DNA from: Fictibacillus solisalsi
GTDB lineage: Bacteria > Bacillota > Bacilli > Bacillales > Fictibacillaceae
DNA length: 64,000 nucleotides
Direction of reading: 5' to 3'
Assembly (NCBI RefSeq): GCF_900103485.1
Contig: NZ_FNHW01000001.1
Coordinates: 3,121,057-3,185,056 of the forward strand
Made by a program: the position numbers and the translations under genes. Below are positions 13,112 to 25,763 of the stretch, piece by piece. Position 1 is the first letter of the stretch; every line of letters begins with the position of its first letter. Under the pieces are notes generated by a model that did no database searches, had not been told where the DNA came from, and saw nothing but the letters and a program-made list of their open reading frames with translations.

Positions 13112-13144
13112 GCAAAAAAATCCAGAATCTAAAACTCTGGATTT
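13112..13144 (-). terminator. Rho-independent terminator of the exopolysaccharide operon
   Basis: On the minus strand the stem AAATCCAGA / TCTGGATTT (right arm 13136-13144, left arm 13118-13126) is followed by seven T residues. The stop codon of the acyltransferase-SinR gene lies inside the hairpin. This marks the 3' end of the EPS transcription unit. Confidence 0.85.
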
Positions 13145-13452
13145 AACGTTTTCTTTCGTTCCCATTCTAAATACTCTTCAAATTGCTCTTTTGTTAACCC
13201 AATTTCTATCGCTTTATTGATGAGGGAAATCCATTCATCATCGATTTGGTCCTGTGTATCTGGATGCATTAGCGCATAGGCAGGGATTTTAAGAGTATGT
13301 GCAATTTTATGCAATATTAAGATAGACGGATTTGATTTGGCATTTTGCTCTATAGAACTTAAATAGGATTTAGCTATGCCAGTTTTCTCTGCTAATTGAT
13401 TAATTGACATTTTACTCTTCATGCGGTATTTTTTCACACGTTCGCCGATCAA
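13129..13452 (-). CDS. Possible nested SinR-like regulator from an internal TTG start
   Basis: Codon 365 of the acyltransferase fusion is TTG (13450-13452), exactly where B. subtilis SinR begins: LIGERVKKYR here against MIGQRIKQYR in SinR. It is preceded by AAGGAAGGTGATGG, a good Shine-Dalgarno sequence about seven bases away. A 107-residue protein translated from it would match SinR (111 aa) over its full length. The alternative ATG at 13468-13470 has no ribosome binding site in front of it. I infer that an independent sinR-like gene was joined in frame to the acyltransferase gene and may keep its own translation start. Confidence 0.55.
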   Translation of the reverse strand: MIGERVKKYRMKSKMSINQLAEKTGIAKSYLSSIEQNAKSNPSILILHKIAHTLKIPAYALMHPDTQDQIDDEWISLINKAIEIGLTKEQFEEYLEWERKKTLNPEF

Positions 13453-14544
13453 ACCATCACCTTCCTTCATTGATGAAAATATTGTATGCATAGAAATCTT
13501 ATATTCTCTTTTTTTGATTTGAGGCCGCGTATTCAGGAATCTCTTAACTTGTCGGATCAGCGGCCTTTCAATAAATAGATAAACCAATAGGCAAGATGCT
13601 ACTGTACAGAAGAGAAGAAGAAGCAAAGATATAAAGTTACCAAAGATATTTGGCACGTTAATAAATATAAACACGTACAAATAGAATTGGATAAATGGCC
13701 CATGGGCAATGTAAATAGAGTAAGAGGCATCTCCTAAAAAAGATAAAAATGCTGGCACCTTAGTTTGTTTCTTTAAATCCACTATCGTGATACCCAGCAT
13801 CATCATAAAAGAAAAGAAGAAATAAAAATAAGGTTCGTAAATGGATACGACATGAAAGAGATTGTTTGACCAAACGAGATAATATCCAGCTAAACCTGAT
13901 AACATCCAAAACAAACCACTACTAAATTTTACATGAAGCACCAAATAAGAGATAAAACAGCCAGCAAGAATCTCTAAATTACTAAAGTTTAATAGAAATG
14001 TATTTTTGCCAGGAATTAAACCCATCTGTGCACTAAGCAAAATTACAGCCCAGCCTGCCAGGATATACTTGAATAGTTTCGGCCATATTAAGAACCCTGC
14101 AAAAACAAGATAAAAAACCATAATATACTGCAGAGACCATGTCACAGTAAGAACAGGGTCAACTGGAAGGAGAAAGAGCGATTTAAAAATGACTGCCATG
14201 TCCCTTTTATGACTCTCATCCTGCATTGGCAGTATAAATAAAATGGCAATGGCTGCAACAGTAAATAAAAAGTACAGTGGATATATCCGCATCCATCGTT
14301 TGACGAGGAATTGCTTTGCTGAGGTTAGGGAACCCGCTTTTGTGCTGTACAAATAAGAGATCATAAAACCAGTTACAACAAAAAAGAAGTCCACGCCCCC
14401 CATACGATTCCATTGGCTGATATGAAACCAGTCATACTGAAATCGTTGGTAAAACATGTGGTTTGCATGGCCCAACATAACAATAATAATTGCGATCGCT
14501 CTAAAGCTTTGGACTAATTGTAATTTATATCTTTCAGCCCCCAT
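13129..14544 (-). CDS. Membrane O-acyltransferase fused in frame to a SinR-like regulator
   Basis: This 471-residue protein has two parts. Residues 1 to about 335 form an acyltransferase-3 (OafA/YrhL) domain with about ten membrane helices and the R-x10-H motif (R15 to H26); this family acylates surface sugars. After a basic linker (about 336-364), residues 365-471 form a complete SinR homologue. It has an XRE-type helix-turn-helix (INQLAEKTGIAKSYLSSIEQN, with the KSYLSSIE recognition helix of SinR) and a C-terminal SinI/SinR dimerisation segment (DDEWISLINKAIEIGLTKEQ). It is the last gene of the EPS operon. The fusion would tether a repressor domain to the membrane. Internal initiation may also yield soluble repressor (next entry). 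A sequencing error that removed a stop codon cannot be excluded from one sequence. Confidence 0.85.
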   Translation of the reverse strand: MGAERYKLQLVQSFRAIAIIIVMLGHANHMFYQRFQYDWFHISQWNRMGGVDFFFVVTGFMISYLYSTKAGSLTSAKQFLVKRWMRIYPLYFLFTVAAIAILFILPMQDESHKRDMAVIFKSLFLLPVDPVLTVTWSLQYIMVFYLVFAGFLIWPKLFKYILAGWAVILLSAQMGLIPGKNTFLLNFSNLEILAGCFISYLVLHVKFSSGLFWMLSGLAGYYLVWSNNLFHVVSIYEPYFYFFFSFMMMLGITIVDLKKQTKVPAFLSFLGDASYSIYIAHGPFIQFYLYVFIFINVPNIFGNFISLLLLLFCTVASCLLVYLFIERPLIRQVKRFLNTRPQIKKREYKISMHTIFSSMKEGDGLIGERVKKYRMKSKMSINQLAEKTGIAKSYLSSIEQNAKSNPSILILHKIAHTLKIPAYALMHPDTQDQIDDEWISLINKAIEIGLTKEQFEEYLEWERKKTLNPEF

Positions 14545-14578: not shown

Positions 14579-15940
14579 TCATTTGGTCCCTAACATTCTG
14601 AGCTGGTGTTTAGGCTGTTCAGTCTTTACACCTTGGGCCTGTTCCCGTTGCAGCACTACACGTATGGTTTGAAGCAGGATCTTTATATCCATGGTTAAAG
14701 AATAATTTCGTACATACATAAGATCATAACGGAGTTTATCTTCAACCGTTGTTGTGTAACTTCCCAGGACTTGTGCCAAACCGGTAATCCCCGGTTTAAC
14801 TGTTAATCGATATAAATAATTTGGAACCTGCCGAGTGAACTGGTGAATAAAGAACTCCCGCTCCGGTCTCGGACCGACAATGCTCATCTCCCCTTTTAGA
14901 ACATTAATAATTTGAGGCAGTTCGTCTATTCTTGTTGCACGGAGCAAATGTCCTACCTTGGTAATTCTCGGATCGTGGTCTGTCGCCAGGGTTGGACCTG
15001 TTAGTTTTTCCGCGTCCTGTTTCATACTTCTAAATTTGTAAATATTGTATCGTTGCCCCTTGAATCCTACACGCTCTTGTTTGTAGAATGCCGGACCCTT
15101 GGATGTGACAGGTATTAGAATAAAAAACAACAAGAAGACCGGACTGGTCAGGATAAGAATTGTTAAAGCAACTGCTATATCGAAAATCCTTTTAGCCAAC
15201 TGTGAACTTTTGCTCATCTTGGGTGGTTGAATGGAAAAAACGAGCATATCATCAATCTGCTGAGTTTGAGCAACGGAGAGAAATAGCTCATACATCTCAG
15301 GGACAATCAAAATCTCCTTTCCCTTTTCTGTACATAAACTCATAATGTCATCGGTTGTGGACTTTTCGAGCCCGGTCCCAATCACGACCGAATCAATATG
15401 GCGCAGGTGCTTCTCCAAATTCTCGATATGATCAACTGAAAGATAGCCCGCCAAGTTAAACCATCCCTTAGTATGATTCAGAAATTTATTGGCTAAATGA
15501 ATGCTTTCATTTTCATCCTTAGCAATTATCAACACATTCTTCTTACCAGTTATCAGCAGAGCCATATACCAGACGGAGAGACGAAATGCAGTAATTACAA
15601 TACATTGAACCACAAAGGCAACCAAAAGAAGCTCATGGTTCTGCAAAAAGAGAACACTCTTTTCAAAAGACCCGATTACTTGTAAAAAAACATGAAAAAT
15701 AAAAAGGGAAATCATTAATGGGTACAACAGGTGCTTAATTCTTTTTCTCCTATAATCACTGTACAAATCAAACAAATAAAAGGTTAATATCCCTGCCAGT
15801 GACACAAAGTAAATCAGGAAAGACTCATCAAATCTCGAACCTTGAAGTTTTAGCGTGAAAAGGAAACTTGCATGCATTAAAACAAAATCTCCTAATGTTA
15901 ATGCCCACTTACCCAACCGCCCATTATCGTTTTTTCCCAT
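14579..15940 (-). CDS. Exopolysaccharide priming glycosyl-1-phosphate transferase
   Basis: This 453-residue protein has an N-terminal bundle of about four membrane helices, a nucleotide-binding-like central domain (about 130-230), and a C-terminal bacterial sugar transferase domain (about 250-440). The last carries the signatures YNIYKFRSMKQDAE, RIDELPQIINVLKGEMSIVGPRPE and KPGITGLAQVLG. This is the WbaP/WcaJ/EpsL type, which moves a sugar-1-phosphate from a nucleotide sugar to undecaprenyl phosphate and so starts repeat-unit assembly. A SinR-like operator lies upstream of its start at 15977-15992. Confidence 0.92.
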   Translation of the reverse strand: MGKNDNGRLGKWALTLGDFVLMHASFLFTLKLQGSRFDESFLIYFVSLAGILTFYLFDLYSDYRRKRIKHLLYPLMISLFIFHVFLQVIGSFEKSVLFLQNHELLLVAFVVQCIVITAFRLSVWYMALLITGKKNVLIIAKDENESIHLANKFLNHTKGWFNLAGYLSVDHIENLEKHLRHIDSVVIGTGLEKSTTDDIMSLCTEKGKEILIVPEMYELFLSVAQTQQIDDMLVFSIQPPKMSKSSQLAKRIFDIAVALTILILTSPVFLLFFILIPVTSKGPAFYKQERVGFKGQRYNIYKFRSMKQDAEKLTGPTLATDHDPRITKVGHLLRATRIDELPQIINVLKGEMSIVGPRPEREFFIHQFTRQVPNYLYRLTVKPGITGLAQVLGSYTTTVEDKLRYDLMYVRNYSLTMDIKILLQTIRVVLQREQAQGVKTEQPKHQLRMLGTK

Positions 15941-15976: not shown

Positions 15977-15992
15977 GTTCTTAATAAAGAAC
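15977..15992. promoter_or_regulatory. SinR-like palindrome before the priming transferase gene
   Basis: GTTCTTAATAAAGAAC is a 16-bp inverted repeat whose minus-strand half reads GTTCTTT, the SinR half-site (GTTCTYT). It lies between the glycosyltransferase stop (16009) and the sugar transferase start (15940). Confidence 0.6.
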
Positions 15993-16008: not shown

Positions 16009-17064
16009 TTATGCCATGCTCAGGTATTCACGCAAGGTATGATTTACCATTTTATCTAAAGAAAACTCCTGTTCAACCTTTTTCCTCGCGGCAGAAATTA
16101 CTCTTTTTTTTATTTCCTGTTGAGATGTTACAGTTACTATTTTTTTAGAGAACTCCTGTACAATATAATCTTCTACAAGAAAACCCGTTTGACTATCCTG
16201 GATGGCCTCCTTTATTCCTCCTTTATCAATGGAGATGATTGGTGTGCCAATCGCCATCGCTTCAATGATTACCATTGGAAAGACTTCTCTTTTTGAGGTT
16301 AACAGGAGCATATCCATCTCCCTGATAAATGTTTCCGGCTGGCTTACATGACCGATCATCTTCACTTTTTCTGTAAGGCCAAGCCTGTGAATATGATCCA
16401 AAATCCGCTTTTCCTCCGGTCCTTCTCCTGCTATATAAAATTCCAAATTTGGCACGGTTCTCATTGAATGAGCTACCTCTAAAAAGAACTCATGATTTTT
16501 TTCTTCCGAGAGTCTTGCAAGTATTCCCACCTTCCAACGATTCGCAGTGTTAAGTTTCTCGCTGAAGGTAAACTGCTTTAAATCAACCCCATTATAAATA
16601 GTCTCTATTTTATTTCCAATAACCCCCAATCCTACGAGGCTTTGTTTTTCAAAGTCACTAACTGTAATAATCTTGTCTACATTACGATTTAAAAGCCCAG
16701 CAAACATTTTTCGATACTTTTGCTCCAAAATCGTAACATTATGTTTCGTATACAAAACTTTAAGTGGTTTTTTGCTAGATTGCTTTAACAAAATGGCATA
16801 TAGGACCAAACGTAAACTATTGGCATGAAGAATAGTAATGTCCTTCTCCTTAATTATGCTCTTGAGCCTGATTAAATTTATCATATGATTCTTCCGTGTC
16901 AGCTCTATAAATTGATATTTATTCTTAATCCGGGTTTGAAGGTCCCCAGTGGCTGCTGCCGTGAATAAGGTGAGCTCATCATGTTGCAATTCATTCTCAA
17001 GCTTGCAGAAATACATTTCGGCGCCACCGGTTATTAGCTTATCGGTCATTAAAAGGACATTCAC
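16009..17064 (-). CDS. Glycosyltransferase family 4 (GT-B fold)
   Basis: This 351-residue cytosolic protein opens with MTDKLITGGAEMYF, the N-terminal glycine loop of GT4 enzymes. Its C-terminal nucleotide-sugar domain has VGILARLSEEKNHEFFLEVA and the EX7E-type segment in SKREVFPMVIIEAMAIGTPII. It starts with GTG, and that codon overlaps the TGA of the polymerase gene (GTGA), so the two are coupled. It would add one sugar to the lipid-linked repeat unit. Donor and linkage are unknown. Confidence 0.9.
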   Translation of the reverse strand: MNVLLMTDKLITGGAEMYFCKLENELQHDELTLFTAAATGDLQTRIKNKYQFIELTRKNHMINLIRLKSIIKEKDITILHANSLRLVLYAILLKQSSKKPLKVLYTKHNVTILEQKYRKMFAGLLNRNVDKIITVSDFEKQSLVGLGVIGNKIETIYNGVDLKQFTFSEKLNTANRWKVGILARLSEEKNHEFFLEVAHSMRTVPNLEFYIAGEGPEEKRILDHIHRLGLTEKVKMIGHVSQPETFIREMDMLLLTSKREVFPMVIIEAMAIGTPIISIDKGGIKEAIQDSQTGFLVEDYIVQEFSKKIVTVTSQQEIKKRVISAARKKVEQEFSLDKMVNHTLREYLSMA

Positions 17065-18302
17065 AACGAGGCTGCCTCCTTTCCAGTCTTATAAAAATTC
17101 ATGGTTGGCGTTCTGTTTACCTCATACAAATAAACAGAAAGAATAGCCATAAACAAAAAGAACATATCGTTGATAATGACAGATAGGGATGCCATTTGAA
17201 GAATATAAGCGACAAATGTTAAAAACAAATACGGTTTATTACAGTGAACCCTATACTGAAACATTTGGATGAACACAAACAGAACAAAAAGCAAAAAGCA
17301 AAAGACCCCAACAACGCCTGATTCGGCTAAAATTTCTAAAAAGGTATTGTGAACGTGTAAGGTATCTCCAAATTGTGATTGGTTATAATCCAGAAAATTA
17401 TTTGCACCGATTCCTATCAAGGGATGAGAGACAAATACATCCCATGCCCTTTCCCAAAGATCCAACCTGCCGCTCCCTCCATCTTTGGAAAAATCATTCA
17501 TTCTGGCTTCCAAAATTCCATAAAGATCGAATTTCAGAAACGTTACTAAGATGTATGCTCCAAGAAGAACGGTAAACAAGGAACCCAATACGAGCTTTAG
17601 CTGCTTAATCGGCTGATGGTTAAGAAGAAAAATATAAAGGACAAAGATAAGTATTAGTACAAGCAAGCCACCTCTGGAAAATGTCAGAATGCTTGTTAAG
17701 ACAGCCAGAGCAAGACCAAACCTGTTTTTTCGTGACCCGGTATGGCACAAGTAATAGGCAAAGAAAATACTGTTATAAAAAACAAAATAATTCGGATCCT
17801 CCAACAAACCGATCAATCGAGGATAATCCCGGTCCATCAAAACACCGAAAGAGGTTAAGGAATCACCTGCAAGAACAAAATTCAGGCTTTTTAACCCCCA
17901 TACATATAGAGCCAAGCTTGCCAGATTAAATAAGATTCCAACAGTAGAGATACTTTTCTCAATCATTTCTCGTGAAGCATTCCCAATAATCGCCTTCATA
18001 AGGAAGTAACAAAGCAAGTACAGGGTGATTCCGATAATAATTCTTAAACTTGAGGCGGGGTACAAAGAAAAAGACCCGCTAAAGCTGTAAACAAGGTAAA
18101 AAAGCAGCATCCCGGTCTCCATTAAATGAAGCCGTTGAAGATAAAAGAATGAAAAATGGATGAAAAAAAATAAAACAAGAAACAGTATATATGGCTTTAA
18201 AGCAAAGCCAATATAGATATTGTATTTTCCCAAGGTAACCAGCAGAATCAGCACAAACAATGCCCAACGAGATTGATTGTCGGGATTTATCTTATAATCC
18301 AT
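17061..18302 (-). CDS. O-antigen ligase/Wzy-type polysaccharide polymerase
   Basis: This 413-residue membrane protein has about eleven transmembrane segments. It carries an O-antigen ligase-like loop with a HPLIGIGANNFLDYN stretch and VHNTFLEILAESGVVG, the conserved signature around the catalytic histidine in WaaL/Wzy proteins. It probably polymerises repeat units on the outer face of the membrane. It overlaps the flippase gene by 11 bases upstream and the glycosyltransferase by four downstream. Confidence 0.88.
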   Translation of the reverse strand: MDYKINPDNQSRWALFVLILLVTLGKYNIYIGFALKPYILFLVLFFFIHFSFFYLQRLHLMETGMLLFYLVYSFSGSFSLYPASSLRIIIGITLYLLCYFLMKAIIGNASREMIEKSISTVGILFNLASLALYVWGLKSLNFVLAGDSLTSFGVLMDRDYPRLIGLLEDPNYFVFYNSIFFAYYLCHTGSRKNRFGLALAVLTSILTFSRGGLLVLILIFVLYIFLLNHQPIKQLKLVLGSLFTVLLGAYILVTFLKFDLYGILEARMNDFSKDGGSGRLDLWERAWDVFVSHPLIGIGANNFLDYNQSQFGDTLHVHNTFLEILAESGVVGVFCFLLFVLFVFIQMFQYRVHCNKPYLFLTFVAYILQMASLSVIINDMFFLFMAILSVYLYEVNRTPTMNFYKTGKEAASL

Positions 18303-19761
18303 TTTCGATCCCTCTTTTCCTCCTTGTTTTCGATTTGATAGGACTCTTTTCCAGTCGTTTTGTCAGGGATCGGTAAAGGTCCCTGTCCAAGAAAACCATA
18401 CAGGCCAAAAGCAGAATATGAACTGTCGCCGCTAAATATGGCTTCGAGTGAAGAAGAACGTTCAAAATCCACAATCCTGCGAAAAAATAAATGAGGTACG
18501 GAACAATCACCTTATGGGCCATTCTCCACCGTCCAGGGAGGAATATCCAAAAACCAGCAAGTGCAAGCCCTTCAATAAGCAATCCAGCATAAGCAGCACC
18601 CACTACTCCGCTTTTAAAGCTTAAAAGAGAATAAAAAAGAACCGCTAGTACAACCGTGATAAACTGGACAAGTGTACGGAATTTTTGCAGCCCTCTCGTG
18701 GTAAGGCCATCAGCAAGAGCAATATTCATTGCTTGAAGGGTAAGCATGATAGATAGTATTTTTAAAGGCTCAGAGGCGAACAGCCATTCTGAACCAAACA
18801 ACCAAGTAATAACCATGTCTGAACAGTAGTAAAACGGTATCGTCATAATCATGCCAAACATACTCATCGTTTTCAGAAGCATCATGTTTTCCTCTGTGTG
18901 TTTATCGAGATTCTGTTGATGATAATGGCGGAACATAACCGGACGATATGCTCCAGCAACAATAAACGGAACCTGCTGCAGGGCCTGAGGAATTCGGTAC
19001 GCAACCGCAAACAGACCAACTTGTTTCAGTGACAATGTCTTTTCTAAAACAATCGGACCAAGCTGCGGAAGAACCATAAACAATAATCCGCTTAAGGTAA
19101 AAAATCCAAAGTGCTCCATCATCCCTTTGTGAAACGGAAGTCTCATTTTTAATTTGACTTGATTCATTACTAAGCAAAGAGCAAATATACCGGCAAGTAA
19201 ATAAGAACTACCATAAAGAACACACATTACCAGCGGCTCTGCTGAAAACAACATGCCAAGAGAGGTCATCCCAACGAGCAATAACGCGGACATCATTCGG
19301 ATCAAACCTATATACTGCATTTTTTCAGTCATTTGAAAAAATGTTGTCCCAATACTTTGCAGAGCAATGCCAATCACCATGGGTACGGATAAAAAGTGAG
19401 AGGTACGCAGTAACTCTCCCTGCCCCATATGCAAAAAGTGAATAATAATAAAACCGAACAGAAAAGTGGCCACCAGCAGGAGTAATCGAATCTTAATGTA
19501 AGAGATTATAATAACAGCAAGATTCGCTTCCTTTTTTGAACCTTCTCTCAAGGCGATCTCACTTAAGCCAGCGTCTGTAAAGAAACCCATAATCATAGTC
19601 AAAGCCAGTGACACGCTAAACAACCCGTAATGATACGAATGAAGATACGAAGCGAGAACGATCAGAGCCAGGGCATTTAATCCGCTTGATAAGGCTGTAC
19701 TATAGAAAAGATGAAAGATATTTTTTGCAATGGTATTCTGTCCCGAGATTTTCATAAACAT
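18292..19761 (-). CDS. Oligosaccharide flippase (Wzx-type, MOP superfamily)
   Basis: This 489-residue membrane protein has 12-14 predicted helices and the polysaccharide-biosynthesis (RfbX/Wzx) pattern, including the early motif YLHSYHYGLFSVSLALTMI and FTDAGLSEIALRE. It would move undecaprenyl-linked repeat units across the membrane. The C-terminus is strongly basic. Its stop overlaps the polymerase start. Confidence 0.88.
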   Translation of the reverse strand: MFMKISGQNTIAKNIFHLFYSTALSSGLNALALIVLASYLHSYHYGLFSVSLALTMIMGFFTDAGLSEIALREGSKKEANLAVIIISYIKIRLLLLVATFLFGFIIIHFLHMGQGELLRTSHFLSVPMVIGIALQSIGTTFFQMTEKMQYIGLIRMMSALLLVGMTSLGMLFSAEPLVMCVLYGSSYLLAGIFALCLVMNQVKLKMRLPFHKGMMEHFGFFTLSGLLFMVLPQLGPIVLEKTLSLKQVGLFAVAYRIPQALQQVPFIVAGAYRPVMFRHYHQQNLDKHTEENMMLLKTMSMFGMIMTIPFYYCSDMVITWLFGSEWLFASEPLKILSIMLTLQAMNIALADGLTTRGLQKFRTLVQFITVVLAVLFYSLLSFKSGVVGAAYAGLLIEGLALAGFWIFLPGRWRMAHKVIVPYLIYFFAGLWILNVLLHSKPYLAATVHILLLACMVFLDRDLYRSLTKRLEKSPIKSKTRRKRGIENGL

Positions 19762-19770
19762 CAGACCTTA

Positions 19771-20397
19771 TCACGTTTGATAGATGACACCTAAAATGTC
19801 GTTTTCCGCCTGCTGGAGCAATTTTTTCGCTGCATATAATTGTTCTCTTTTCGTTTGTTTTTCCTTGATGACCAGAAGTACACCATCACAGTAATCCGCC
19901 AGCAGCTGTGGATCGGACACCTTAAGCAACGGGGGAGCATCAAAAATCACAACATCGTAATTACTTCTTAATTCTTCTGTCCACTTCTTCAACCTTTCCG
20001 AACTCCAAACTTCAGTCAGATTGGGTACAGAAGGACCCGCTGGAAGGAGCGAAAGATGATCCAAATCGGCGACCCTGGCATAAAGCTTTGTGCTTTGTTC
20101 TTTAGTAAGCACATCTGATAGTCCTTTTGTATTATGGATACCCATCAACTGATGAAGAAAAGGATTTCGGATATTCGCATCGACTAAAAGCGTATTTTTT
20201 CCTTGTTCTGCGAAGCATACTGCAAGTTTAGCGGTTAATAAACTATGATCGAGCTGATCACTTGGCGAAGTTAACATTAGTAAATTGCCATTCATTTCTA
20301 ACTTCCGTTGGAGATTTGCATACATCATCCGAAAGGATTCGGCAGAAGGCCCTGCAAGCAGAACACCCTTGTTGAAACTGTCGCTAACCTTAAACAT
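19771..20397 (-). CDS. Degenerate CpsD/CapB-type BY-kinase lacking the Walker A lysine
   Basis: This 208-residue protein has the CpsD/YwqD fold and sits next to its usual YveK partner, but the catalytic motifs are broken. Where active kinases have an S-x-x-PGEGKST Walker A loop, it has TSPSDQLDHSLLT (about 43-55), without the P-loop glycines and lysine. The A' motif reads LLVDANIRNP (about 70-79), with Asn in place of the second Asp. Walker B (VVIFDAPPL, about 149-157) is kept. The C-terminal tyrosine cluster used for autophosphorylation is absent; the protein ends GVIYQT. It is therefore probably a pseudokinase that acts as a structural partner of YveK. It overlaps the YveK gene by eight bases. 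Confidence 0.85.
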   Translation of the reverse strand: MFKVSDSFNKGVLLAGPSAESFRMMYANLQRKLEMNGNLLMLTSPSDQLDHSLLTAKLAVCFAEQGKNTLLVDANIRNPFLHQLMGIHNTKGLSDVLTKEQSTKLYARVADLDHLSLLPAGPSVPNLTEVWSSERLKKWTEELRSNYDVVIFDAPPLLKVSDPQLLADYCDGVLLVIKEKQTKREQLYAAKKLLQQAENDILGVIYQT

Positions 20398-21124
20398 TGG
20401 CTTCCCTCCCTTTTCGAAGGCGCTTCACTGGCCGCTTACCAAATAAGATTAAACGCTCTTTTTTTTGTTTCATTTTGACTTGACCAATAACAGAAAGTCC
20501 AAATGTTCGTTCCACTTCATTTATGTCTTTGATTGAATCATCAAAGTATTCAACCAACATCGCTAAGCCAACTCCAATAAATAATCCGACAAACATGCCA
20601 ATAATGATGTTTAAATATGGATTGCCTATCTGTTTAACAGAAACCGCTTCTTCTGAATCGTTAAGCATTTTTACCTTCTTTATGTTCAGCAGGTCATTAA
20701 TTTCGGCAACAGAAGTCTTGGCAAGGGTATGAGCGAGTTGTTTAGCATAAGCAACGTCAGTTTCCTTAACCACAATATTAATAATTTGGGAATCTTTATT
20801 GTTTTGCAGAGCAATTTGCTCTTCCAGCTTTTTTAAATCAGTGTTTAAATTCATTTCATTTTTTACAAGGTCTAAGACAATCGGACTTTTCATTAAGTCC
20901 ATTGATGAGGCAAGAATTCTGCTAAATTCCTGGGTTTCAGTGTAGGCATCCTTGGTGTTTTGCTTTCCAATCATGATGTATTCCGTAGCTTCATACGTAG
21001 GCTTGATTAGGAACAGTGTGATAAAGGCAGTGAGAACAGAAACACCAATTGCCGTAAGTATGATGAGAAAAGCTCTCCGTTTAATAATTTGCAGGAACCT
21101 TTTTATATCTACTCTCTCGTCCAT
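20390..21124 (-). CDS. YveK/CpsC family chain-length and kinase-activator protein (Wzz domain)
   Basis: This 244-residue protein has an N-terminal helix (about 18-38), an extracytoplasmic Wzz domain, and a second helix (NPYLNIIIGMFVGLFIGVGLAMLVEYFDD, about 168-196) ending in a short basic cytoplasmic tail. Such proteins set polymer length and normally activate a CpsD-type kinase through the tail. An AGGAGG site precedes the ATG, with a SinR-like palindrome just upstream. Confidence 0.9.
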   Translation of the reverse strand: MDERVDIKRFLQIIKRRAFLIILTAIGVSVLTAFITLFLIKPTYEATEYIMIGKQNTKDAYTETQEFSRILASSMDLMKSPIVLDLVKNEMNLNTDLKKLEEQIALQNNKDSQIINIVVKETDVAYAKQLAHTLAKTSVAEINDLLNIKKVKMLNDSEEAVSVKQIGNPYLNIIIGMFVGLFIGVGLAMLVEYFDDSIKDINEVERTFGLSVIGQVKMKQKKERLILFGKRPVKRLRKGREANV

Positions 21125-21141
21125 GATTACCTCCTCTGATA

Positions 21142-21163
21142 TTCGTTCTTATTAAAGAACGAA
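21142..21163. promoter_or_regulatory. SinR-like palindrome before the YveK gene
   Basis: A perfect inverted repeat has 9-base arms TTCGTTCTT (21142-21150) and AAGAACGAA (21155-21163) around ATTA. The inner 16 bp (21145-21160) have the same GTTCT-N6-AGAAC layout as the other sites in this operon. It lies in the 54-base junction between the beta-helix gene and the YveK gene. Confidence 0.65.
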
Positions 21164-21178: not shown

Positions 21179-22111
21179 TTAAAATTTGTTTTCAACTCCC
21201 CTATCCCTAACAAACTTCTTATCAATATTAAAGTTTAATTCGGTCTGAAAAGCATGGGGATGTAAATCAATCAGCGTTGATGCGTCTTTTAACAATGAGG
21301 TATCCCATATCATTCCTTCAAAAATGTTATGAGTTCCGTTTACCGAAAGTATTTGTTCCGTTTGTTTTGTGATCTGTACTTGAAGACCTGAAAACTGATT
21401 ACCTGAACTTTCATTCGGAATTGACCTTGAACTATTGATAACAATACATCTTATACAGTCATCAAAAGTAAAGTGGGTAAACCGATTCCCATTAATCCAG
21501 GCTGCATTTTTGTTCGGCTTTCGAACATTAATCTCCAGCCCCTTTTGAAATCCTGAAATTGAAATATCTTCGAAGTTCACAAAACTGATATAATGGTTGG
21601 CGCCTCCTGCAAAGAGTTTGATTCCTGTCCCATCATGGCCTCCGCTAGAATTGACAATGGTAAGATTACGTACCCGGGTTCTGGTATCCGACCAGAATTG
21701 TTCTTTGCCATCCAAGTAAATTACTTCCGCGTGAAAATGCTTGTCAGTAACCTCGATAATCCCGTTTGTAATGGATGAATTTTTATGTAAGGAAAAGGCT
21801 CGGAAATTACCGTTAACTAAAATTTTAGTGTTCTGACCCAGTTCCAATTCAACACCTCGTTTTACATTCAGCCCCGAGGTTAGAACATATTGCTTGTTAC
21901 CGGTAAGCCTTACTTTTCCTATCTCAGATGAGTAACTCTCATTAATTGCTTGCTGTATAGCCATCGTATCATCCTTCAAATCATCACCATTTGCTCCATA
22001 TTTCTCAGCATTAATGTAATCAGTGGTTGATTTGTCTGAGTGATAATAAAGGAAGGTTACAAGCAATCCTAAGCCAAAAAAGAAATAAATCCATTTCTTC
22101 CTTTTATGCAT
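21179..22111 (-). CDS. Signal-anchored right-handed beta-helix protein (pectate-lyase-3-like)
   Basis: This 310-residue protein has an uncleaved signal anchor (about residues 6-24) followed by the Pectate_lyase_3/GH28-like opening YINAEKYGANGDDLKDDTMAIQQAI. A repetitive beta-helix region follows, with alternating hydrophobic strands and Asn/Gly turns. It is clearly paralogous to the next gene upstream (shared patterns LTSGL, GNRFT and FxGMIWD versus LDGMAWD). In EPS clusters such proteins may be lyases, epimerases or hydrolases acting on the polymer. No catalytic residues could be assigned. Confidence 0.75.
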   Translation of the reverse strand: MHKRKKWIYFFFGLGLLVTFLYYHSDKSTTDYINAEKYGANGDDLKDDTMAIQQAINESYSSEIGKVRLTGNKQYVLTSGLNVKRGVELELGQNTKILVNGNFRAFSLHKNSSITNGIIEVTDKHFHAEVIYLDGKEQFWSDTRTRVRNLTIVNSSGGHDGTGIKLFAGGANHYISFVNFEDISISGFQKGLEINVRKPNKNAAWINGNRFTHFTFDDCIRCIVINSSRSIPNESSGNQFSGLQVQITKQTEQILSVNGTHNIFEGMIWDTSLLKDASTLIDLHPHAFQTELNFNIDKKFVRDRGVENKF

Positions 22112-22120
22112 TACACCCCT

Positions 22121-22921
22121 CTATTCTTTACTATTGAATCTCCCCCGATCAATCGTTCTTGAAGCAGGAATGGACCGAAATTTGACGGTGTTATAAGAAC
22201 TTGCAGCAACAAATTCAACCAAAGGGTTTGTTGAAATAATATTGAGGTCCCATGCCATGCCATCCAGCCGGTTATACTGTCCCGATATGGTAAAGAGCTT
22301 TGTGGTCTTGGTTGATGGCTGAATTTGCATGTTTGAAAAGATATTCCCAGTACATTCATTAGGAACACTTTCACCAGAGGTAATAGTAACCATATTTATA
22401 CAATCTTCCATTGAGAAGTTGATAAACCGGTTTCCATTCACCCAGCTTTTCCCGCTTGCCGGTTTTACCGCCTGCAATCGAACTCCTGTTTGAAAACCTG
22501 AGATTCTAATATTTTCGAAGTCAATAAAGGTAATTCCGTATTCTGTACCATTGGAATACAATTGAATAGCTGTTCCTTTGTTCGTTCCGGTCCAGTTAAT
22601 AATGTTGCAATTGCGAATAATGGTCCGTTCCCAGATGTTATAATATTTGTACTTTCCATCCAGATAGATGACATAAGAGTTAAAATTAGGATCGTCGATT
22701 GCGATATAAGCTCCCTCCAAAGATGCATCCTTTTGGAGCTCAAAGACTCTGAAATTTCCTTGAACGACTAATCTCGTGTTATAGCCTCCTACCAGTTTAA
22801 CTCCCTGCTTTATAATAATTCCTGATGTTAATAGATAATCTCTATTTTCCAACGTAACAACTTTATTTAAATTAACAGAAGCAGCATCTATTAATGATTG
22901 TATTACCGATGAATCACTCAT
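22121..22921 (-). CDS. Right-handed beta-helix protein, paralogue without signal sequence
   Basis: This 266-residue protein shares the beta-helix body of its downstream neighbour (YLLTSGIIIKQGVKL, then VNGNRFINFSMEDCINMV). It lacks the N-terminal membrane anchor and the opening GANGDD motif, so it is probably cytoplasmic unless exported by another route. The pair is a tandem duplication that has diverged, with a nine-base junction. The function is unknown. Polymer modification or trimming of repeat units is the likely range. Confidence 0.7.
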   Translation of the reverse strand: MSDSSVIQSLIDAASVNLNKVVTLENRDYLLTSGIIIKQGVKLVGGYNTRLVVQGNFRVFELQKDASLEGAYIAIDDPNFNSYVIYLDGKYKYYNIWERTIIRNCNIINWTGTNKGTAIQLYSNGTEYGITFIDFENIRISGFQTGVRLQAVKPASGKSWVNGNRFINFSMEDCINMVTITSGESVPNECTGNIFSNMQIQPSTKTTKLFTISGQYNRLDGMAWDLNIISTNPLVEFVAASSYNTVKFRSIPASRTIDRGRFNSKE

Positions 22922-22992: not shown

Positions 22993-24354
22993 CTATTGAT
23001 AATTTGCGATTTTCATAGGAGATTCATATTCCTGAATTGCTTCCTCTGCTTTTATTTCAGAGGATAACTTTTGTGTACTGATCAACATCATGTTAGTTGA
23101 AGCCCGGAGTGTTAATAGGGAGTGTTGAGGAAGTTCAAGTACTGTTCCCGCTTCCAAGTCAATCACTTCTTTGTTTAGGATCAGTTCACCTTTTCCACTG
23201 ATTATTGTCCATACCTCACTCCGAGAAGGGGACAGTTGTTGCTCCCATAGTCCACCGGCATTGATTTTGAACTTTTTGGTTACTACGGTTTGGCCGTCTT
23301 CAGCAAGCGTGTCATCAAGCACCTTATAGGATCCCCAACTTCTTTCTTCATATCTGGGTGCCATTTCAAACGTTTGAACAAGATCCTTAATATGCGGACT
23401 TTGTTTTTTATCAGCTACAAGAATTCCATCGGGGCTCGCTGCAACGATAACATCACTTACTCCTATTACGGTCACTGGAATGTCCAATTCATTAATAAGG
23501 TGTGTATTATCACAGTTATGATGTAAAATCCCTTTTCCGATCTTTTGAATCCCCATCTCTTCTGTTAACGTATTCCATGTACCGAGGTCCTTCCAATATC
23601 CGTCATAGGAGAGGGCGGCTATTTGTTCTTCTTGCTCAACAACTTCATAATCAAAGCTGATTTTAGGCAAATCAGCGTACTTCTTTAGCATTTCCTGATA
23701 TTCAATGGGGAATCCCTTCTCCTCAAGCAGAGTTAGTAAGTATCCTAGTTTAAAGGCAAATACCCCACTGTTCCATAACGCGTTCTTCTCTATTAATGTT
23801 TCAGCAAGCTGCTTTTTCGGTTTTTCATAAAAGCTGTTAATCCTTATCCATTTGTTGCTCTCCTCTGGTTCAGGAACCATATATCCATACTTTTCGGAAG
23901 GATAGGTAGGCGTTATTCCGAGTAAAGCAAGATTTGCATCGGATTGCCGCAGAAGTAATTCCAAATCCTTTACTCTTTGAAAAAATTCCCGATCTACAAA
24001 AGGATCAACTGGAAGAATTGCAACCACTTCGTTTAAATTTGCCTCCATAACCGAAAACAGGTAAGTAGCAGACAGGGCCACAGCAGGAAAAGTATCTCTC
24101 CTTGCCGGTTCCACAATCAAAGGTACATCCAGGCCAACCTGATTTTGTATCATATCTACTTGTGAACCATTGGTGGCTATGAGTGAGGATTCAGATAGGT
24201 GAACAGCTTTTAGCTGACTCCAAACTCTCTGGATCATGGATTCATTTTCATTCGCCTTGTTATTGAGCACTTTCAAGAACTGTTTTGAGCGTGCATCATT
24301 AGAGAGAGGCCAAAGCCGCTTTCCTGATCCTCCTGACAACAGAACTAATTTCAT
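22993..24354 (-). CDS. manC: Mannose-1-phosphate guanylyltransferase (ManC-like) with degenerate isomerase domain
   Basis: This 453-residue protein has an N-terminal nucleotidyltransferase domain (LSGGSGKRLWPLS, residues 6-18; later FYEKPKKQLAETLI and NSGVFAF). It would make GDP-mannose from mannose-1-phosphate and GTP for the EPS. A C-terminal cupin follows (about 330-430), as in bifunctional mannose-6-phosphate isomerases. The usual metal-binding H-x-H-R-x-E-H pattern is replaced by SPSRSEVW, so isomerase activity is doubtful. It is the second gene of the EPS operon, after the glycosyltransferase. Confidence 0.85.
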   Translation of the reverse strand: MKLVLLSGGSGKRLWPLSNDARSKQFLKVLNNKANENESMIQRVWSQLKAVHLSESSLIATNGSQVDMIQNQVGLDVPLIVEPARRDTFPAVALSATYLFSVMEANLNEVVAILPVDPFVDREFFQRVKDLELLLRQSDANLALLGITPTYPSEKYGYMVPEPEESNKWIRINSFYEKPKKQLAETLIEKNALWNSGVFAFKLGYLLTLLEEKGFPIEYQEMLKKYADLPKISFDYEVVEQEEQIAALSYDGYWKDLGTWNTLTEEMGIQKIGKGILHHNCDNTHLINELDIPVTVIGVSDVIVAASPDGILVADKKQSPHIKDLVQTFEMAPRYEERSWGSYKVLDDTLAEDGQTVVTKKFKINAGGLWEQQLSPSRSEVWTIISGKGELILNKEVIDLEAGTVLELPQHSLLTLRASTNMMLISTQKLSSEIKAEEAIQEYESPMKIANYQ

Positions 24355-24381: not shown

Positions 24382-25593
24382 TTATCCATTTATAACTCTC
24401 TTACCGAACTCGCTATTCCTTCTTGAAATGGTATCCAGGTAGAATTGCTCAAGCTTTTTATTCAAGGAATCCCAATGATAATTCTCCTCTACAAATGCTC
24501 TTGCATTGATCCTTATCTCCTCCAATTTCTCCGTGTCAGAGAGTAAATTTACAACAGCATCAGCAAAATCCTGATCGCTATCACGAACAACGGCGGATCT
24601 TGAATCGACAGCACCAATGGGGTCATTCACAATGGAGGTGGTTAAAACAGGAACCCCTGCGGACATAGCTTCCAACACCTTATTTTGCACTCCAGCACCT
24701 GTTTTTAACGGACAGATGAACAGCCTTGATTGATGTAAATACTCACGAATATCATCGACCTCTCCTGTGACGATAATATCTTTTTTATCCTTACAAAGTT
24801 GGATTAATTCTTTAGTTGGCTCCCGCCCAACAACATAAAAGGTAAAATCCGTAATTTTCTGCTTGATGAGCGGGTAAATATGTTCAATAAAGTAATGAAC
24901 ACCATGCCGATTTGGTTCGTACGACATGTTGCCTACAAAGATGAGATTTCTATTTGCAGGAAGTTGGTGTTGATAATGAAAATAATCCAGATCAACTCCA
25001 TTACTTATGGAAATTACTTTAGGCGAACTCCTTTCCACATTGTTTTTATCTACATGGGAAATAAAGATTGAACCATCAAACTCTTGAACAGCTTTTTTCT
25101 CCATCCGTTGAATGGCCTTTGCTTCATAGGTAAGAAAAGGATTTATAATAGATTTCTTAAAAGCTTTTCTACGCGTAAGATTTAATGAAATAGAATCCAC
25201 AAAATCAATGACATTCGGCAATTCTTTAAGCTCATCAAAATAAGGAGATGTTCTCACAAGCTGGGTATGCAAAATATCATAATGGCAGGTTTGCACCGCT
25301 TCTTTGATCGTTTTTCTAAATTCCTCAGACAGGTAATAAGAGACCTGCAATGGACTATTGGCAGTCATTCCTGCCAGCATGCTTCTCATTGCGGATATCT
25401 TATTAAATTTCACCGGAAAAAACTTTGAACACAGCGAGCTTATTTCTGTTACAGGAACTGGTTGATCAGAATAACTGATCAAGTGAATATCATGTCCCAA
25501 CTGCTTCAATCCCTTTAGCTGATTAAAAGCTCTTAGCTGGTCTCCCTTTCTGGGAGGAAACGGAATTCTTGGTGTGATAAAAAGGATGCGCAT
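24382..25593 (-). CDS. Glycosyltransferase family 4, first gene of the EPS operon
   Basis: This 403-residue GT-B protein opens with ILFITPRIPFPPRKGDQLRAFNQLKGL, typical of the EpsF/Stp1-like branch of GT4. Its C-terminal half has LIFVGNMSYEPNRHG and the donor-binding PLKTGAGVQNKVLEAMSAGVPVL. A strong AAGGAAGGTG site precedes the ATG, and the mRNA leader is about 140 bases long. It likely transfers mannose or another sugar onto the lipid-linked intermediate. Confidence 0.9.
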   Translation of the reverse strand: MRILFITPRIPFPPRKGDQLRAFNQLKGLKQLGHDIHLISYSDQPVPVTEISSLCSKFFPVKFNKISAMRSMLAGMTANSPLQVSYYLSEEFRKTIKEAVQTCHYDILHTQLVRTSPYFDELKELPNVIDFVDSISLNLTRRKAFKKSIINPFLTYEAKAIQRMEKKAVQEFDGSIFISHVDKNNVERSSPKVISISNGVDLDYFHYQHQLPANRNLIFVGNMSYEPNRHGVHYFIEHIYPLIKQKITDFTFYVVGREPTKELIQLCKDKKDIIVTGEVDDIREYLHQSRLFICPLKTGAGVQNKVLEAMSAGVPVLTTSIVNDPIGAVDSRSAVVRDSDQDFADAVVNLLSDTEKLEEIRINARAFVEENYHWDSLNKKLEQFYLDTISRRNSEFGKRVING

Positions 25594-25624: not shown

Positions 25625-25640
25625 GTTCTATTTAGAGAAC
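25625..25640. promoter_or_regulatory. SinR-like palindrome in the EPS operon leader (downstream copy)
   Basis: GTTCTATTTAGAGAAC reads on the minus strand as GTTCTCT-AA-ATAGAAC, one half being an exact SinR half-site GTTCTYT. It is 80 bp from a nearly identical second copy and 32 bases before the first start codon. Confidence 0.7.
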
Positions 25641-25704: not shown

Positions 25705-25720
25705 GTTCTATCTAGAGAAC
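25705..25720. promoter_or_regulatory. SinR-like palindrome in the EPS operon leader (promoter-proximal copy)
   Basis: GTTCTATCTAGAGAAC differs from the 25625 copy at one position. On the minus strand it begins 15 bases after the -10 element, at about +9 of the transcript, where a bound repressor would block initiation or early elongation. Confidence 0.75.
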
Positions 25721-25735
25721 AGTCCTTATGCCCTA

Positions 25736-25763
25736 ATTATATGTATATAATTAGCAAAGTCAA
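25736..25763 (-). promoter_or_regulatory. Sigma-A promoter of the exopolysaccharide operon
   Basis: On the minus strand TTGACT (25758-25763) and a perfect TATAAT (25736-25741) are separated by 16 bases. No other promoter of this quality is seen in the 264-base gap, and the galE terminator ends just upstream. Confidence 0.85.

Follow-up and report, generated by a model that had tools for sequence, protein, structure and literature searches.

The window analysed here, a stretch of 64,000 nucleotides from Fictibacillus solisalsi, carries an EPS operon whose genes run from a glycosyltransferase to an open frame in which an acyltransferase-3 (AT3) continues, without a stop, into a SinR homologue (Table 1). 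The AAA_31 ATPase of this operon is, judging by its position, presumably BY-kinase-like. A promoter-like site precedes the first gene and a terminator-like hairpin closes the operon; the number of such sites in the region shows no excess over shuffled sequence (33 promoter-like sites versus a shuffle mean of 37.5, and 7 terminator-like sites versus 9.2). The operon of Fictibacillus aquaticus (G007), whose genes apart from AT3 we matched by eye, has the same gene order as that of the window, starting at the first glycosyltransferase and ending at sinR; the differences are two ORFs and galE, which lies upstream of the operon in the window and after sinR in F. aquaticus. The two ORFs, an adjacent pair at 21179-22921 inside the window operon, have no counterpart in the F. 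aquaticus operon, and an ORF similar to them by eye is found near the operon of another relative, G219 (L133:15633-16481).

Table 1. Features of the EPS operon and of its last, fused gene in the window
Feature	Position	Strand	Remarks
Terminator-like hairpin	13118..13144	minus	operon end
Fused ORF, acyltransferase-3 then SinR homologue in frame	13129..14544	minus	ATG start, 471 aa
SinR homologue from internal TTG (residue 365)	13129..13452	minus	107 aa, HTH and SinI-type dimerisation segment
Probable former intergenic stretch	13453..13491	minus	adjoins low-confidence linker 340-352 of the model
Shine-Dalgarno-like sequence	13456..13467	minus	AAGGAAGGTGAT, usual distance before internal TTG (13452-13450)
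AT3 part, residues 1-348	13501..14544	minus	R15-x10-H26 motif; Pfam Acyl_transf_3 14-322
Sugar transferase (Bac_transf)	14579..15940	minus	Pfam
SinR-type palindrome just before sugar transferase gene	15977..15992		GTTCTTTATTAAGAAC on minus strand
Glycosyltransferase	16009..17064	minus	Pfam
Polymerase/ligase type (Wzy_C)	17061..18302	minus	Pfam
Flippase type (Polysacc_synt)	18292..19761	minus	Pfam
AAA_31 ATPase	19771..20397	minus	Pfam
Wzz	20390..21124	minus	Pfam
SinR-type palindrome before Wzz gene	21145..21160
Pectate-lyase-like ORF	21179..22111	minus	weak Pfam match
ORF resembling the preceding one by eye	22121..22921	minus	no Pfam match
Nucleotidyl transferase, ManC type	22993..24354	minus	Pfam
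Glycosyltransferase, first gene of the operon	24382..25593	minus	Pfam
SinR-type palindrome in operon leader	25625..25640		GTTCTCTAAATAGAAC on minus strand
SinR-type palindrome just downstream of promoter-like site	25705..25720
Promoter-like TTGACT-16-TATAAT before first gene	25736..25763	minus	11/12 consensus bases

Read on the plus strand in its first frame, the region 13129-14544 is interrupted by stops throughout; the open frame is that of the minus strand, from 14544 to 13129. Both halves of its product are covered by Pfam domains above their cut-offs, i.e., Acyl_transf_3 at residues 14-322 (E 2.4e-23), HTH_19 and HTH_3 at residues 367-427 (E 1e-13 and 3.1e-12) and the SinI domain (PF08671) at residues 434-460 (E 5.6e-10; 39.3 bits versus a cut-off of 31.4). 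The AT3 part scores 83.2 bits with PF01757 (cut-off 31) and carries in helix 1 the R/K-x10-H motif, in which R15 and H26 are invariant across the four aligned AT3 sequences (the window and three relatives). The preliminary description of this DNA had reported such a motif and a complete acyltransferase joined to a complete SinR, at the end of an EPS operon with SinR-type sites in its leader; the ORF list, the domains, the terminator-like hairpin and two leader palindromes bear it out on these points. The predicted structure of the fusion (15 sequences; mean pLDDT 83.9, pTM 0.70) has AT3 helices up to residue 339, a stretch at 340-352 with pLDDT below 50, and SinR helices from residue 366.

We searched for the same fusion elsewhere. 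With the full-length protein as query, the one-frame form was found in the window only, among 7 genomes of the genus, 34 of the family and, in the matches listed, 397 of the order (each set including the genome itself, and the sets overlapping; four candidates per genome were scored in the order search). A conserved fusion was thus rejected, and the window is the only place, among the genomes searched, where the arrangement that would mark a membrane-tethered transcription factor occurs. The co-linear homologues with both domains that had been proposed as a check turned out to be adjacent genes, with no second fusion. Indeed, AT3 and sinR are separate neighbouring genes in four relatives, G007, G114 (Peribacillus frigoritolerans), G219 and G346, with gaps of 47, 39, 28 and 19 nt, respectively, between the AT3 stop and the sinR start, and with frame relations of 2, 0, 1 and 1. 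The P. frigoritolerans match spans residues 7-460 of the fusion with two TAA inside, and several further matches, beginning in sinR, get as far as the AT3 region only across many stops. The acyltransferase of G346 is a different PF01757 protein, missed by the AT3 query at E 1e-40, which suggests that the repressor kept its place at the operon end while the enzyme was exchanged; since the AT3 query misses such distant acyltransferases, the adjacency is undercounted.

Queries with AT3 only gave no further fusion, either in 398 genomes of the class (E 1e-60; 3 matches including that of the window) or in 80 genomes of the family of P. frigoritolerans (E 1e-40; 2 matches). Against genome contigs, a single-protein query returned no relative and an AT3-alignment query returned 15 loci. 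A sinR-like gene follows AT3 in two of them (L092 and L094, which exact 500-base matches assign to the genomes G007 and G114, respectively, and from which the species names of these two derive), a weaker XRE gene that lacks a SinI match follows it in one (L097:5082-5513, Bacillus sp. FJAT-27251), and the remaining 12 have no sinR-like gene after AT3. At L104, a SinR-like gene lies upstream of AT3. Among 18 loci of the order search inspected with 1.5 kb flanks (L056-L073), sinR comes after AT3 in two (L056 and L065), and L063 has a sinR on the upstream side. In plasmid searches, no record covered 80% of the fusion query. The literature searched, outside which most subscription papers lie, contained no SinR-acyltransferase fusion, EPS-operon SinR or comparable tethered factor, which is no proof that such a system is absent from print.

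The comparison with these relatives would place a former gene boundary inside the fused frame. Residue 1 of B. subtilis SinR (1b0n) aligns with residue 365 of the fusion, encoded by the internal TTG that follows the Shine-Dalgarno-like sequence, and translation of a free SinR would start at this codon (13452). G114 and G219 have a TTG at the same sinR codon, with a similar Shine-Dalgarno sequence, and F. aquaticus has a CTG there or, three codons upstream, a GTG. Most other SinR genes listed start with ATG or GTG, the latter being the start of the canonical sinR of the genome itself. On the AT3 side, if the count starts two residues past the invariant E326, the tail of the window enzyme has 24 residues to S351, as in F. 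aquaticus. There, a TAG comes after the tail; in the window, by ungapped count, this stop position is taken by ATG codon 352 (13491-13489), and the sinR TTG comes 36 nt on. The AT3 tails of G114 and G219, with 27 residues, are three longer and would leave 27 nt before the window TTG. Hence, the position of the lost stop is approximate, 36 nt or 27 nt before the TTG depending on the relative taken as reference. The extra codons are as long as the gaps of the relatives and are best read as the former ribosome-binding stretch.

The palindromes of the operon point to control by a SinR-type protein. According to PMC3163267, B. subtilis SinR has a Kd of 300 nM for the inverted repeat GTTCTCTAAAGAGAAC, which it holds about 10 times more tightly than tandem or single sites. 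The leader site GTTCTCTAAATAGAAC is one base off this repeat, and the pattern GTTCT-N6-AGAAC has its spacing. The window contains four such palindromes, all within the EPS operon, against 0.08 expected, and 0 of 100 shuffles reach four; as the pattern was written after the two leader sites had been seen, only the two inner sites are independent. Single GTTCTYT boxes (26 in the window, a number reached by 7 of 100 shuffles) are uninformative, the palindrome being more informative. SinR operators at matrix operons are of the GTTCTYT type, with the inverted repeat as their best form; the four sites may be such operators, for which the genome encodes more than one candidate SinR protein.

The whole genome has 11 exact palindromes, versus 5 for a control pattern. 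Besides the four of the EPS operon, two lie before a TasA-like gene and one before tapA/sipW/tasA-like genes; a further one stands some 300 nt ahead of a Wzz-like ORF, and three are elsewhere. The names TapA and SipW are presumptive, and the TapA-like protein has no Pfam match. The palindromes at 1331287 and 2137581 are inside coding frames, and that at 2444285 is in a repeat-rich open frame. The two before the second TasA-like (Peptidase_M73) gene (G000:C4:1389011-1389167, L108) are far from the tapA/sipW/tasA-like genes. The one near the Wzz-like ORF, which was named by eye and perhaps belongs to a second polysaccharide operon, also falls where a small ORF of the opposite strand starts (G000:C4:3228984-3228999, L113).

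Among the relatives, the site immediately ahead of the sugar transferase is nearly alike in four operons: GTTCTTTATTAAGAAC in the window, GTTCTTTATCAAGAAC in F. aquaticus, where it is exact, and GTTCTTTATTAAGAAT in G114 and G219, with one mismatch. Each of the four also has sites ahead of the first operon gene; those of the window and F. aquaticus are exact, and those of G114 and G219 have one mismatch. With one mismatch allowed, L087 and L133 hold 6 and 5 palindromes, against 0.54 and 0.65 expected, some of them not between genes. Exact palindromes are in no excess over the control pattern in the whole genomes of these relatives (5 versus 9 in G007, 4 versus 14 in G114, 3 versus 4 in G219); two of those of F. 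aquaticus are near its canonical sinR.

The SinR part itself belongs to the SinR family by its XRE-type HTH (HTH_19 and HTH_3 above cut-off), a match to 1b0n at query 2-102 and a SinI-type two-helix dimerisation segment. Members of this family are soluble and repress matrix operons; in the window, the internal Shine-Dalgarno sequence and TTG would allow a soluble product, within a frame that is open from AT3 onwards. In a tree of 59 SinR-like sequences, built without duplicates, partial hits or hits above E 1e-10, the paralogues of the window, G007, G114, G219 and G346 group together, apart from the canonical SinR of the genome itself, with a support of 96/79 that is just below the star rule (95 and 80); the alignment has few columns (109), and the branches are long. 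The sequences thus suggest, just short of that rule, an operon-tail SinR group distinct from canonical SinR. The EPS label needed two changes on this tree, as G346 did not yet carry it at the time of tree building. Within the group, the F. aquaticus paralogue is not a clean match, owing to its start codon and to a Phe at SinR position 33, where the window has Ser. In the genome of the window, a sinI-like frame stands right before the canonical sinR, which is followed by a more distant SinR-like gene on the other strand. Eight SinI-domain stretches of this genome score above the Pfam cut-off, including that of the window and those of two other SinR-like genes; four are small frames of 59-74 aa that may encode SinI-like proteins.

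We consider it probable, on the grounds of sequence, that the EPS operon is under SinR-type control and that the SinR paralogue of the EPS-linked group encoded by its last cistron is still made as a free protein and feeds back on the operon, the AT3 stop having been lost here. Indeed, the separate genes of four relatives and the TTG with its strong Shine-Dalgarno sequence point to a loss of the AT3 stop in this lineage (or to an assembly error), by which acyltransferase and sinR would have come to share a frame, with sinR still started internally. Because the repressor keeps its own ribosome site and the genes are separate in the relatives, a free feedback regulator is most likely still made, probably as a 107-aa protein; besides it, the cell may produce some of the full-length fusion, with its HTH on the cytoplasmic side. 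The free paralogue, alone or with canonical SinR, would bind the leader palindromes and those that precede the tail genes. Made last, it would limit the operon once this is running; the negative sign of the feedback is one that we infer.

The preliminary description had instead proposed a membrane-tethered repressor, the 471-aa fusion being the working product that links acylation, repressor supply and operon expression. The single uninterrupted frame with its two intact domains is consistent with it, and so is the model, in which two folded parts are joined by a low-confidence stretch; moreover, the AT3 end would be cytoplasmic if there are ten helices, the usual number according to PMC9558356, and the HTH could then reach DNA. 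However, the genus, family and order searches gave no second genome with the fusion among the matches listed, the frames of the separate genes vary in the four relatives, the sinR part has an intact Shine-Dalgarno sequence and start codon of its own, and the extra codons, as long as the relatives' gaps, adjoin the low-confidence linker. We thus regard a repressor that is normally tethered as improbable, and that proposal is not supported. It is also quite unlikely that the single gene gives two regulators, a membrane-held, acyltransferase-tethered SinR and a free SinR from the internal TTG, with the amount of EPS acyltransferase setting the self-repression; with the dimerisation segment present in both, tethered chains could sequester free SinR.

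A wrong base count, for instance in the seven-T run at 13509-13515 (plus strand), could also hide a stop between two genes. The absence of this stop is known from one assembly, both other frames hit a stop within about 20 codons after the run, and all four relatives have a stop between AT3 and sinR. On the other hand, the genome is in 14 contigs, 100% complete and 0.12% contaminated, the site bears no direct sign of error and both domains lie in intact frames without any correction; we regard an error as unlikely. Somewhat less doubtful is another role for the free protein, as a partner or antagonist of canonical SinR that relieves or redirects repression. The paralogue carries the SinI-type dimerisation segment, and a precedent exists in SlrR, which, according to PMC3163267 and PMC5733473, binds to SinR and thereby alters both the activity and the targets of the latter. 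Against it, the paralogue has Ser at SinR position 33, in the recognition helix, as in SinR, and not Lys, as in SlrR; it also scores 65 bits with the SlrR model versus a cut-off of 250, yet the canonical SinR of the same genome scores just 79, so that this model hardly separates SinR from SlrR.

If the paralogue binds its own operon, it would add to the SinI/SinR switch of B. subtilis a built-in feedback loop with an intra-operon site, and the arrangement of AT3 and sinR at the operon tail occurs in three genera. The fusion itself would be of importance only if a functional tethered form is produced; it offers a cheap test case of an operon regulator losing its gene boundary. The window AT3 shares with the AT3 acyltransferases of polysaccharide clusters (PF01757) the domain, the R-x10-H motif and the polysaccharide operon setting, and differs from them in its C-terminal DNA-binding part. 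In the text of the AT3 review (PMC9558356), SGNH and alanine racemase are the two commonest C-terminal fusions, and the words "transcription" and "helix-turn-helix" are absent. The SinR part is collinear with B. subtilis SinR (PDB 1b0n, 3zkc) over SinR residues 1-105 (E 3.1e-23), with an identical recognition segment, AKSYLSSIE, and a SinI-type C-terminal segment in both. Unlike B. subtilis SinR, it is a second SinR-like protein beside the sinI-like and sinR genes of its own genome, and its coding sequence closes an EPS operon, in one frame with an acyltransferase. SlrR is likewise a SinR paralogue with the same two-part build; the window paralogue, unlike SlrR, is encoded by the last gene of an operon.
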